Assembly: GCA_016929195.1 (NCBI GenBank)
Contig: JAFGJG010000123.1
Coordinates: 1-44,273 of the forward strand
Length of the DNA: 44,273 nt
Origin: Thermoleophilaceae bacterium
GTDB lineage: Bacteria; Actinomycetota; Thermoleophilia; Solirubrobacterales; Thermoleophilaceae
Reading direction: 5' to 3'
Positions 32,255 through 35,827 of the stretch are shown here, in pieces. The notes under the pieces were generated by a model that saw nothing but the letters and a program-made list of their open reading frames with translations, did no database searches and was not told where the DNA came from. The first letter of the stretch is position 1; each line of letters starts with the position of its first letter. A program made the translations under genes and the position numbers.

Positions 32255-33961
32255 CTAGCCCTTGCGCGCTCCCTTGCGCGACGGGAGCGGGACGACGTTC
32301 CCCGGCACGTCGCCGTTGCGCTCGAGCACGGTGCGGACGTTGCGCGGGCGCCACTTGAACCCGCCCGGCGGCGGAACCTGTTCGTCATTGAGCGCGTCCG
32401 CGATCGCCTGGAGCGATTCGCCGCGGTCGCGCAGAGCGACGATCCGTGCGGCCAGCTCGGCGTCCACGGCCCGGCCCGGGCCCGCGAGCTTCGCGCGCTC
32501 GCTGCGGACGAGCTCGAGCTGGTGCACGAGCTCGCGGCCCTCCGCCGTGGAGGTGTCTAGCTCCGGCTCGAGCGCCACGAGCGCCACACCGCGGTCGTCG
32601 AGCCGCTCGAGCAGGGTGTCGAGCTGCTTGCGCGAGGTGGCGAGCCGGCTCACGTCGCAGACCACGAGGGCGCGCGCCTCCTCGGACTCGAAGCGCTCCA
32701 GCGCGTACCGCACGCCGGGCCGCCTCATCACGTCGCCGCCGTTCGCCTCCACGTCGCGAACCACTCCGAGGAGCTCGAACCTGCGGCGCTTGCAGAGCCC
32801 CTCGATGCGGGCGAGCTGGTCGTACAGCTCGGACTGCCGCTCGGGCACCGCCTTCGGCACCGTCACGTAGCCGAGCACCGGCGTCCCCGGCCGCAGGCCG
32901 CGCTGACCTGACCACGGCCCGGGATGTGCCTGGAGCGCGGGCGGAAGCGGGGTCTCCACCTCCGTGTACGCGACCCAGAAGGGGAGCCGGTGCTTCGGGT
33001 CGAGGACGAAGAACCTGCTGCCCTCGGCGCGCTGTTCAGCGTCCTTCACGTCCGGCATCTCGACCGCGTACGCCGTACCGCGGAAGCGGCCGATCTCCGG
33101 GTCGCTGCTCTCGCCCTCCACCTCGATCCCGCGCCCGAGCGGCACCACCGTGGTGGGCGGCTTCCGGCGCGGCAGCCGGTCGCGCAGCAGGAACAGGAGC
33201 CCCGCCACGCCGAGCACGCCCAGCGCGATCGCGATCGGCATCCACGGCACGCCGGCTCCGTCCCCGTCGCCGGTCTCCGTGGTTGCGGCTGCCGGCTTCG
33301 CCCCGGCGGGCCGCTCGTCCCTGGGTGACTGCTCGGAGCCTCGCCGCTCCGTGTCCTGCTTCGGCTCGTCCTTCACCTTCCGGCTGCCGTCGTCGCGGAG
33401 CCGGTTGAGCGCCGCGCTCGTGCGCGCCCCCACGACCCCGTCCACGACGAGGTCGCTCTTGCCCTGGAGGCTGTTGACGGCCAGCTCCGTCTGCGGCCCG
33501 AACTTCCCGTCCACCGGCCCGGCGCGGAAGCCCGCCGCGCGGAGCCGGCGCTGGAGCGTCCGGACCCGTGGCGAGCCACCGGCCACGCCCACGCCCTCGC
33601 CGGGCCGGAGCGGCCGCGGCCGGGCTGAGCGGAGCGCCTTGCGCGTCGCCTGTCCGACGATCCCGTCAGCGGCCAGGCCGGTCCGCAGCTGAAGGCGGAC
33701 CACGGCGCCCTCGGTCAGCGGGCCGAAGATGCCGTCGACGGGCCCGGGGCTCTCGCCGAGGGTCTGCAGCCGTCGCTGCAGGTCCTCGACGGGGCCGGAA
33801 CCGCCGGGGGTCCCGTATCCCGCGCCGCGGGCAAGCAGATTGGAGCCCTGGGGCTGCTGGGCCGCCGCCGCGGCCGGGAATGCGCCCAGCGCGAGCGCCA
33901 CTCCCACCAGCAGAACCACCAGCCCGCTGCCTGCGGCCGAGGATCCTTTCTTTCCGAACAT
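32255..33961 (-). CDS. peptidoglycan-binding / transmembrane / degenerate serine-recombinase fusion protein
   Basis: A 568-residue fusion from ATG 33961 with a GAAGGAG site 7 nt before it. An N-terminal Sec signal (1-34) is followed by two PG_binding_1 domains (about 56-111 and 130-187), each with the VDGxFGPxTExAV motif. Then comes a polar linker (188-236), a transmembrane helix (238-260) followed by RDRLPRRK, and an about 100-residue linker domain. A resolvase-like domain runs 361-492 and a recombinase-type C-terminal helical domain (about 498-550, SLQAIADALNDEQVPPP) follows. The positive-inside rule puts the PG-binding part outside and the resolvase-like part inside the cell. The resolvase active site is degenerate: the GYxRVS motif is GYVTVP, so nucleophile Ser and adjacent Arg are replaced, and LDRLxR is VSRLAT. 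It lies directly downstream of the Pro-rich protein gene. Confidence 0.85.
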   Translation of the reverse strand: MFGKKGSSAAGSGLVVLLVGVALALGAFPAAAAAQQPQGSNLLARGAGYGTPGGSGPVEDLQRRLQTLGESPGPVDGIFGPLTEGAVVRLQLRTGLAADGIVGQATRKALRSARPRPLRPGEGVGVAGGSPRVRTLQRRLRAAGFRAGPVDGKFGPQTELAVNSLQGKSDLVVDGVVGARTSAALNRLRDDGSRKVKDEPKQDTERRGSEQSPRDERPAGAKPAAATTETGDGDGAGVPWMPIAIALGVLGVAGLLFLLRDRLPRRKPPTTVVPLGRGIEVEGESSDPEIGRFRGTAYAVEMPDVKDAEQRAEGSRFFVLDPKHRLPFWVAYTEVETPLPPALQAHPGPWSGQRGLRPGTPVLGYVTVPKAVPERQSELYDQLARIEGLCKRRRFELLGVVRDVEANGGDVMRRPGVRYALERFESEEARALVVCDVSRLATSRKQLDTLLERLDDRGVALVALEPELDTSTAEGRELVHQLELVRSERAKLAGPGRAVDAELAARIVALRDRGESLQAIADALNDEQVPPPGGFKWRPRNVRTVLERNGDVPGNVVPLPSRKGARKG

Positions 33962-33990
33962 CCGAAGACTCCTTCTCGAGCGATACGACG

Positions 33991-34014
33991 GCCGGCCGCG
34001 CAGGGGCGGCCGGC
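33991..34014 (-). terminator. hairpin between Pro-rich and PGBD-recombinase genes
   Basis: Perfect 9-bp arms GCCGGCCGC/GCGGCCGGC with a 6-nt loop, 19 bp past the stop of the Pro-rich gene and 29 bp before the recombinase-like start. It may terminate the upstream transcript partly, or attenuate between the two genes. Confidence 0.5.
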
Positions 34015-34033
34015 TTGGGCTGGCCCGAGAGGG

Positions 34034-35827
34034 CTAGCCGGGGCGCTCGAGAAGGGCGATGTAGGCCTGCGGCCGCAAGCGGGCCGAGGCCATCACCAGC
34101 GGGCCCATGCGCAGGGCGGCGAGGCCCATCAGCGCAAGGAGCCCGGCGAAGAGTGCTGCGGAGAAGGCCCCGCCGGGGGAGCCGCCGCCGGCGGTCGCTC
34201 CTCCGGGGGCCTGCGTGGGCGCCGGACGCTCGGGCGCCGGGGCCGGCTGGGACGGCGGTGCGTCGGGAGAGCCGGATCCGGCGTGCCGGGAGCCGGTGCC
34301 GAAGAGCTTGTCGGCGATCCCCGCGGGCAGCGTCGCGGGGACGCCCGCCTGGCCGTCGAGGAACGCGGCCACCGACGGCGGGAGAAGCGAGAGGCGGTCG
34401 GCCAGGGTGCCGAGGAGGCCGCCTCCGTCGCTTGCGCCCAGGAACCCGCCGAGCTCACCGGAGAAGGACCAGGGGAGCGTCTCCGGTGACGCCGTGGCGG
34501 GCGTCCCGGGGCTGGTTACGGAACCGCCGGCGGGCGGCCCGGGTGTAACCGGTGCGGGCGGAGCCTGTGTGGGCGCGGAATCCACGGCCTCGGTGACGGG
34601 CGGGGGGCCGAGCGGCGGGAGATCCGGGAGCACCTGGACGACCGGCGGATCGGCGGGCGGCGCGGGCGGATCGGGCAGGACGGGGACGACCGCGTCCGGG
34701 ATGACCGGGTCGACCACCGGCGGGACCTGGACGATCGGCGGCAGCTCGACGACCGGCGGCGTCTCGGGGAGGACCGGCGGGAGCTCGGGGAGCGTGTCGA
34801 CCGGGACCGGGACGATCGGGTCGGCCGGCAGCTCCGGCAGCACCGGGGGCAGCTCGGGAAGGGTGTCGACCGGGACCGGGACGACCGGGTCGACGTCGAT
34901 CACCGGATCGGCGGGCAGCTCCGGGAGGACCGGATCGAGGTCGACCGGAAGCTCCGGCAGCACCGGGGGCAGGTCCGTGGGCGTGTCGACCGGCGTCGGG
35001 ACGATCGGGTCGAGGTCGATGACCGGGTCGGCGGGCAGCTCCGGCAGCACCGGGTCGAGGTCGATCGGATCGGCCGGGGTCACCGGGTCGAGGACAGGCT
35101 CCGGGTCGAGGTCCGGCAGCGGCAACACGTCGATCGGGTCCGGGGCCACCGGGCCGGAGTCCTCCGGCGTCGTGGGCGGAACGACCGGGTCGAGATCGAC
35201 CGGAAGGTCGGGAATGGAGGGAAGCTCGGGGAGCGGGTCCGGGAGGGCGCCCGGCGGCTCGCTCTCGTCGAACGGGGGAAGCGGGAGGGCGCCCGAATCC
35301 GAGTCGGGCTCCGGCGACGGGGCGGGGGCCTCACCGGCGGGCTCCTCCGGAAGCGCCTCGCCGACGGTGTCGCCGACCACACCGGTCACGTCGTCGACCG
35401 CGGCCGGCACGTCCACGACGGGCTCGGCCGGGATCTCGACCACCGGCTCCGAAGGGGCCTCCGCGACCGGCTCCGCGGGCGCCTCCACGGCGGGCTCAGC
35501 CGGCGCCTCCGCAACGGGCTCCGCGGGGGGCTCCGCGACCGGCTCCGCGGTGGGCTCAGCGACAGGCTGCGCCGGCGTGTCGGTGGCGGGGACCGCGGGC
35601 TGCTCGACCTCGGGCACGCCCGGCCCGGGCTCCGCGGGCTCGGCCGGCGTCACAGGCGTCTCGGGCAGCGCGTCCTGGACCGCGCTCTCCACCTCGGGTA
35701 CATCGACCGGCAGCTGGGCGGACGCGACGGATGGCGCCAGGACGGCGAGCAGCGTGAGCAGGAGCGCGACTAGGAGGCCCCGGCGGAGGCCCGTGGTTAT
35801 CGGTGGATTGCGCGTCGCGCCTGCCAA
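34034..35827 (-). CDS. large exported proline-rich repeat surface protein
   Basis: A 597-residue protein from a TTG at 35827. Sec signal: LLVALLLTLLAVLAPSVASA (about 19-38). Residues 40-440 are low-complexity, first with AEPVAE/APAEP-type repeats, then with DLDPVLPELPADPVI-type repeats (Pro, Asp, Val, Leu, Glu). This suits an extended rod across the wall. A short ordered part (about 450-505) and a Pro/Gly linker precede a C-terminal transmembrane helix (SAALFAGLLALMGLAAL) and a basic tail ending LLERPG. It is probably a cell-wall-spanning anchor or stalk. The repeats vary at base level, so they are not CRISPR-like. The TTG start has no clear Shine-Dalgarno; no in-frame ATG is better. Confidence 0.75.
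   Translation of the reverse strand: MAGATRNPPITTGLRRGLLVALLLTLLAVLAPSVASAQLPVDVPEVESAVQDALPETPVTPAEPAEPGPGVPEVEQPAVPATDTPAQPVAEPTAEPVAEPPAEPVAEAPAEPAVEAPAEPVAEAPSEPVVEIPAEPVVDVPAAVDDVTGVVGDTVGEALPEEPAGEAPAPSPEPDSDSGALPLPPFDESEPPGALPDPLPELPSIPDLPVDLDPVVPPTTPEDSGPVAPDPIDVLPLPDLDPEPVLDPVTPADPIDLDPVLPELPADPVIDLDPIVPTPVDTPTDLPPVLPELPVDLDPVLPELPADPVIDVDPVVPVPVDTLPELPPVLPELPADPIVPVPVDTLPELPPVLPETPPVVELPPIVQVPPVVDPVIPDAVVPVLPDPPAPPADPPVVQVLPDLPPLGPPPVTEAVDSAPTQAPPAPVTPGPPAGGSVTSPGTPATASPETLPWSFSGELGGFLGASDGGGLLGTLADRLSLLPPSVAAFLDGQAGVPATLPAGIADKLFGTGSRHAGSGSPDAPPSQPAPAPERPAPTQAPGGATAGGGSPGGAFSAALFAGLLALMGLAALRMGPLVMASARLRPQAYIALLERPG

Follow-up and report, generated by a model that had tools for sequence, protein, structure and literature searches.

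We analysed a 44,273-nucleotide (nt) stretch of DNA from a Thermoleophilaceae bacterium (assembly GCA_016929195.1, contig JAFGJG010000123.1), hereafter the window, in which two adjacent genes, A and B, are read from the minus strand. Gene B encodes a 568-residue protein with, in order, a signal peptide, two PG_binding_1 domains, a transmembrane (TM) helix, a juxtamembrane beta domain, a catalytically dead serine recombinase domain and a helix-turn-helix (HTH) domain. Gene A, its upstream partner, encodes a signal peptide, a Pro/Asp-rich low-complexity region, a C-terminal TM segment and the tail LRPQAYIALLERPG. The surrounding genes are metabolic, transport and hydrolytic, a chromosomal setting. 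The codon-position GC content of gene B (0.79/0.53/0.93) is that of genuine genes in this 73% GC window. The 568-residue layout of signal peptide, PG_binding_1 pair, single TM and resolvase-like domain had been proposed in a preliminary description made from the sequence alone, and Pfam matches and hydropathy agree with it; that description gave no strand and overlooked both the beta domain and gene A. The features of the locus are collected in Table 1.

Table 1. Features of genes A and B, in window coordinates; residue numbers refer to the gene B protein.
Feature	Position	Strand	Remarks
Gene B, whole open reading frame (ORF)	32255..33961	minus	568 aa; ATG start
Ribosome-binding sequence GAGAAGGAG	33969..33977	minus	7 nt ahead of gene B ATG
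Predicted signal peptide, residues 1-34, end AAAAA|Q	33860..33961	minus	hydrophobic segment 14-32; cleavage site by eye
PG_binding_1 domain 1, residues 57-110	33632..33793	minus	Pfam PF01471
PG_binding_1 domain 2, about residues 133-187	33401..33565	minus	second PF01471 stretch
Predicted TM helix, residues 241-259	33185..33241	minus	hydropathy; followed by RDRLPRRK (positive-inside)
Juxtamembrane beta domain, about residues 268-340	32942..33160	minus	relatives and structure models
Dead serine recombinase catalytic domain, residues 361-492	32486..32881	minus	Pfam, alignment, model, fold match
GYVTVP, residues 364-369	32855..32872	minus	in place of GYxRVS; Arg8 and Ser10 gone
VSRLAT, residues 437-442	32636..32653	minus	in place of LDRLxR; Asp67 and Arg71 gone
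Recombinase-type C-terminal HTH, residues 500-549	32315..32464	minus	PF07508, alignment, model helices; diverged, without RGG
Gene A	34034..35827	minus	directly upstream of gene B, 72 nt gap
C-terminal ERPG of gene A	34037..34048	minus	invariant in 13/13 rows

The N-terminal half of gene B carries the features of an exported, wall-binding protein. PF01471 matches in two stretches C-terminal to the predicted signal peptide (E 6.2e-34, over the curated cut-off), and residues 132-188 align with SleB and other solved PG-binding domains. Exactly two strong hydrophobic segments were found, the signal peptide (14-32) and the TM helix (241-259), so that hydropathy yields the layout of a membrane one-component protein, in which one TM helix separates an external domain from a cytosolic HTH. 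From this topology, derived from hydropathy and charge alone, the recombinase part is predicted by the positive-inside rule to lie in the cytosol. The juxtamembrane beta domain gave only weak SH3/Tudor-like matches to known folds (Foldseek E above 0.1, best Z 6.8). Its relatives are small leaderless proteins, consistent with a cytosolic place just inside the membrane. Two of them, L232:1498-1788 (+) and L235:1498-1788 (+), directly follow a thioredoxin gene (by eye).

By sequence and modelled fold, gene B is a member of the serine recombinase superfamily. PF00239 (Resolvase) matches residues 376-487 (E 2.2e-14, over the curated cut-off), and profile matches of the domain include Gin and gamma-delta resolvase. 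Residues 260-568 were modelled with AlphaFold2 from a 30-row alignment (mean predicted local distance difference test score 85); the model best matched serine recombinase catalytic domains (3bvp_A, TP901-1 integrase; Z 18.9 over 134 residues, root-mean-square deviation 2.0) and aligned over both domains with DNA-bound Tn3 and gamma-delta resolvases. Aligned with gamma-delta resolvase and with active relatives of the same class, gene B has T, P, S and T at Arg8, Ser10, Asp67 and Arg71 (gamma-delta numbering) and retains Arg45. Both degenerate motifs had been read in this way in the preliminary description, which considered strand exchange unlikely; the loss of the four catalytic residues bears this out. 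Its claim that the recombinase C-terminal helical domain is retained holds as well, since PF07508 (Recombinase) matches residues 500-548 over its cut-off (E 3e-5, 24.8 bits vs 21.1) and the HTH can be aligned.

This architecture recurs. Searches among relatives and across the class and order, with follow-up of the loci, gathered eleven proteins with signal peptide, PG-binding domains, TM helix and resolvase domain, hereafter the fusions, from ten Solirubrobacterales genomes: the window protein, a paralogue in its own genome (G000:C156), and proteins of G001, G002, G016, G189, G368, G415, G416, G452 and G454. All eleven match both PF01471 and PF00239. The named genomes belong to Solirubrobacter, Conexibacter and Thermoleophilaceae, all Solirubrobacterales, a group of soil actinobacteria that has received little study, and isolates with the same architecture include Candidatus Solirubrobacter pratensis and S. 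taibaiensis. In a tree of 34 recombinase domains, the eleven fusions group with four TM-only and nine soluble or tandem proteins in a dead clade of 24 rows (support 99/99), separate from seven active rows. The complete four-residue active site was present in 7/7 active rows; among the homologues of the dead clade, which we inspected for an intact serine, it was complete in 0/24. Ser10 was lost independently in three further soluble proteins on the active side of the tree. The fusions with PG-binding domains do not form one clade inside the dead group, where support is limited; this may reflect repeated gain or loss of the fusion.

These data bear on whether gene B could be a working recombinase held at the membrane. 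Its fold and HTH are retained, but Ser10, Arg8, Asp67 and Arg71 are all gone and no clade member has the full set; recombination by the known mechanism is ruled out by the active-site table, and we regard a working enzyme of any kind as extremely improbable. Two other arrangements were encountered among the relatives. In G294 (L071:4497-5882 (-)) and G252 (L072:3674-5146 (+)), two dead recombinase domains lie in tandem, the first much reduced, and a signal peptide is not evident. A separate soluble lineage (L076, L077, L079, L081, L082, L093, L094), widespread in other Thermoleophilia families, carries GYxRVAPRE, having independently lost Ser10 and retained Arg8 and Asp67.

Closely related pairs show purifying selection on the dead domain. 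The ratio of nonsynonymous to synonymous substitution rates (dN/dS) of the recombinase region was 0.16 for the TM-only proteins of G258 and G454, 0.27 for the tandem proteins of G294 and G252, and 0.39 for the fusions of G189 and G454; in this last pair, the one so divided, the TM/linker gave 0.89. Strong third-position GC bias compresses dS, and all these ratios are probably overestimates. Such constraint argues against a chance read-through fusion, an assembly chimera or a decaying pseudogene. The window does come from a 193-contig draft, and the related genomes are mostly drafts, but ten genomes, isolates included, share the architecture, the frames are open and the upstream partner is conserved. 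A one-off chimera is ruled out by this recurrence, and we see scarcely any chance for the other forms of artefact or decay.

Constraint is distributed unevenly within the recombinase region. Taking a single row from each lineage, members of the dead group share on average 65% pairwise identity in the HTH and 35% in the catalytic domain, the HTH being higher in 91/91 pairs, whereas twelve active relatives average 45% and 44%, with the HTH higher in 35/66 pairs. Five of the active rows had been fetched by HTH patterns, a bias that works against the contrast. Label shuffles as extreme as that observed numbered 0/5000, a result that is no strict probability, as the rows share ancestry and the shuffle ignores kinship. 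The HTH is thus the best-conserved segment of the dead clade. Retention of the HTH while the catalytic domain drifts is expected if strand exchange is unimportant and DNA binding important, and the comparison supports the reuse of the recombinase fold as a DNA-binding domain.

A second constant of the fusions is the gene upstream. Pfam returned no match for gene A. The own-genome paralogue has the same kind of partner at a gap of 68 nt, and an ERPG-ending partner also lies directly upstream in G016, G189, G368, G416, G452 and G454. In all, the partner was found in 8/10 testable fusions, which had been gathered independently of it; it is absent upstream of those of G001 and G415, and the G002 locus, which starts at a contig end, was untestable. 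Conversely, the ERPG tail profile matches a minority of the order, and among six strong tail genes found independently of gene B, four (G434, G436, G437, G430) have a PG-binding membrane protein directly downstream and two (G000:C28, G010:C20) do not. In G236, G378 and G434, the paired PG-binding protein carries tetratricopeptide (TPR) repeats inside in place of the recombinase; G436 and G437 resemble TPR variants at the same place, and G399 has a short tail. In G236, G378, G399 and G434 the very next gene encodes a LuxR-type response regulator; in G016 such a gene is a few genes distant. Directly adjacent response regulators thus occur in 4/7 modules without a recombinase and 0/8 with one. 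These small numbers are suggestive of a swap, in which a response regulator together with either TPR repeats or a short tail takes the place of the recombinase and its HTH.

The ERPG tail also occurs in other settings. Weaker tails elsewhere in the class adjoin other secreted repeat proteins, so the motif is a wider one. ERPG ends unpaired secreted low-complexity membrane proteins (L107:6702-7673 (-), L109:4107-5468 (+), L215, L220, L228), several of which adjoin secreted Asn/Gly-rich repeat proteins. A third ERPG-tail gene of the window's genome (G000:C28:28698) is followed by a secreted Gly/Asp/Asn-rich repeat protein. The tail may be a general envelope-protein motif of Thermoleophilia. One pattern match, in G038, was rejected as a false positive, a glyoxalase/VOC-like protein by eye. 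Between genes A and B, the window (33961-34034, minus) contains an inverted repeat rich in GC (GCCGGCCGCCCCTGCGCGGCCGGC) that lacks a T run, a possible attenuator.

A mobile origin was considered and rejected: phage and plasmid records yielded no match to 80% of the gene B protein, their matches are confined to either the recombinase or the PG-binding part, and the neighbours are the metabolic, transport and hydrolytic genes noted above. At L062:1-3400 (+), the G368 fusion adjoins, in convergent orientation, ORFs resembling murE/murF/mraY (by eye). In Solirubrobacter, the genomes G189, G258 and G327 each contain a single copy of the dyad TGTCAG-N4-CTGACA, about 90-115 nt upstream of a soluble dead recombinase gene, and G454 has GTCAG-N4-CTGAC at the same place (loci L151, L148, L150 and L074). 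The dyad is accompanied by a conserved promoter-like block, TTGATC-N17-TAGGCG, and is a candidate operator, possibly an autoregulatory one. The one exact site in G453 stands apart from any relative.

What, then, could gene B do? We tentatively favor, with confidence somewhat short of even, a wall-anchored, membrane-bound DNA-binding one-component regulator built on a dead recombinase. Its ancestor would have been a small serine recombinase that lost its strand-exchange chemistry. The PG_binding domains would sit in the wall and hold the protein there, the single TM helix would pass on tension or occupancy, or merely anchor, the dead domain would dimerise, and the HTH would bind DNA next to the membrane. 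Input would come from the wall, perhaps via the ERPG protein, in a layout like that of CadC/ToxR. DNA binding, wall sensing and gene control by gene B are what we infer from these comparisons; wall sensing is plausible, and the PG_binding domains may serve only as an anchor.

Several observations weigh against this regulator. The window HTH is the most diverged of the complete ones and has no RGG motif, unlike the intact HTH of the G416 and G452 relatives, and the HTH is absent from 3/11 fusions (the G000 paralogue, G001, G415). Comparing the window gene with its paralogue gives a dN/dS of 0.62 for the dead domain, a weaker constraint than in the close pairs. Kinship among rows tempers the HTH contrast, as noted above. 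Apart from gene A, no conserved neighbour was found across the fusions. Finally, the Solirubrobacter dyad has no match in the window even at two mismatches, and no operator was found at the locus.

The diverged window HTH and the three fusions devoid of one, the own-genome paralogue among them, suit a protein-protein scaffold, in which the dead fold would be no more than a platform for dimerisation or interaction on the inner side of the membrane, perhaps engaging the gene A ERPG tail, and DNA binding by the window protein would be vestigial. TPR repeats in the equivalent place and the conserved pairing with an ERPG-tailed partner fit this role too, but it does not account for the HTH being the best-conserved segment across the dead clade, and we consider it unlikely. 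The same evidence qualifies the suggestion in the preliminary description that the fold is reused for DNA or protein binding: HTH conservation and purifying selection favor DNA, and the three fusions without an HTH may bind protein. A wall-to-nucleoid tether, whose HTH would keep part of the chromosome at the envelope, for instance for positioning or division, with transcription unaffected, draws on the same wall-binding domains, single TM helix and strongly constrained HTH as the regulator, and agrees with the lack of a recognisable regulated gene nearby apart from gene A. By contrast, replacement by TPR repeats with a response regulator suits signalling better, and members without an HTH cannot tether DNA; we judge the tether improbable. 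The one-component regulator is therefore preferred over both.

If gene B is such a regulator, the TPR and short-tail modules would look as if DNA-binding output were supplied in trans by the LuxR-type response regulator. This raises the more doubtful idea of an undescribed Solirubrobacterales two-protein envelope system, in which an ERPG membrane protein and a wall-anchored PG-binding protein would convey wall state to the chromosome through interchangeable cytosolic outputs: TPR repeats working with a response regulator in some modules, direct DNA binding by a dead, repurposed serine recombinase in others. Serine recombinases are known for cutting DNA; among described members of the fold, we found none that acts as a DNA-binding domain bound to the membrane and anchored in the wall. 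In its conservation pattern, gene B's clade clearly exemplifies an enzyme pared down to the half that binds DNA. If correct, the regulator would provide a physical connection running directly from the wall to the chromosome, perhaps linking wall state to it, in a system testable in cultured Solirubrobacter strains. The ERPG tail of the partner is an unrecognised C-terminal motif of a poorly studied class.

Literature searches returned no paper on this architecture, on the partner or on selective HTH retention, in line with the earlier remark that no member is characterised. Gene B resembles small serine recombinases (gamma-delta/Tn3 resolvase, Gin) in fold, sequence homology and the order of catalytic domain and HTH, but lacks Arg8, Ser10, Asp67 and Arg71 and carries the domain C-terminal to its signal peptide, PG-binding domains and TM helix. 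With PG_binding_1 proteins such as SleB and muramoyl-pentapeptide carboxypeptidase it shares these domains, two of them and predicted to lie outside the membrane, but a cytosolic DNA-binding-type domain stands in place of a hydrolase or transpeptidase. Membrane one-component regulators of the CadC/ToxR type have an N-terminal DNA-binding part with a winged HTH, and no PG-binding domains. In both layouts, a single TM helix connects an external sensing part with an internal DNA-binding one; gene B has the opposite order, a recombinase HTH and PG-binding domains. IS607-type and MJ0014-like proteins also show the recombinase fold in an unusual arrangement, but their HTH is N-terminal and they are not membrane proteins. 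YneA of Bacillus subtilis is a small membrane-bound division inhibitor with a LysM domain, and YneB resembles a resolvase, a likeness also carried by the name of its NCBIfam model. The two are encoded in one SOS operon, yneA-yneB (PMC6051672). In combining a wall-binding membrane component with a resolvase-like one, this operon is the nearest echo of gene B that we found, although YneA and YneB are separate proteins and gene B is a single fusion. Gene B was rejected as a YneB itself (NF049883; 15.8 bits vs the equivalog cut-off of 175). The parts of gene B are thus known from other systems; their combination, the ERPG partner and the way in which the HTH has been selectively kept appear new relative to the literature found.
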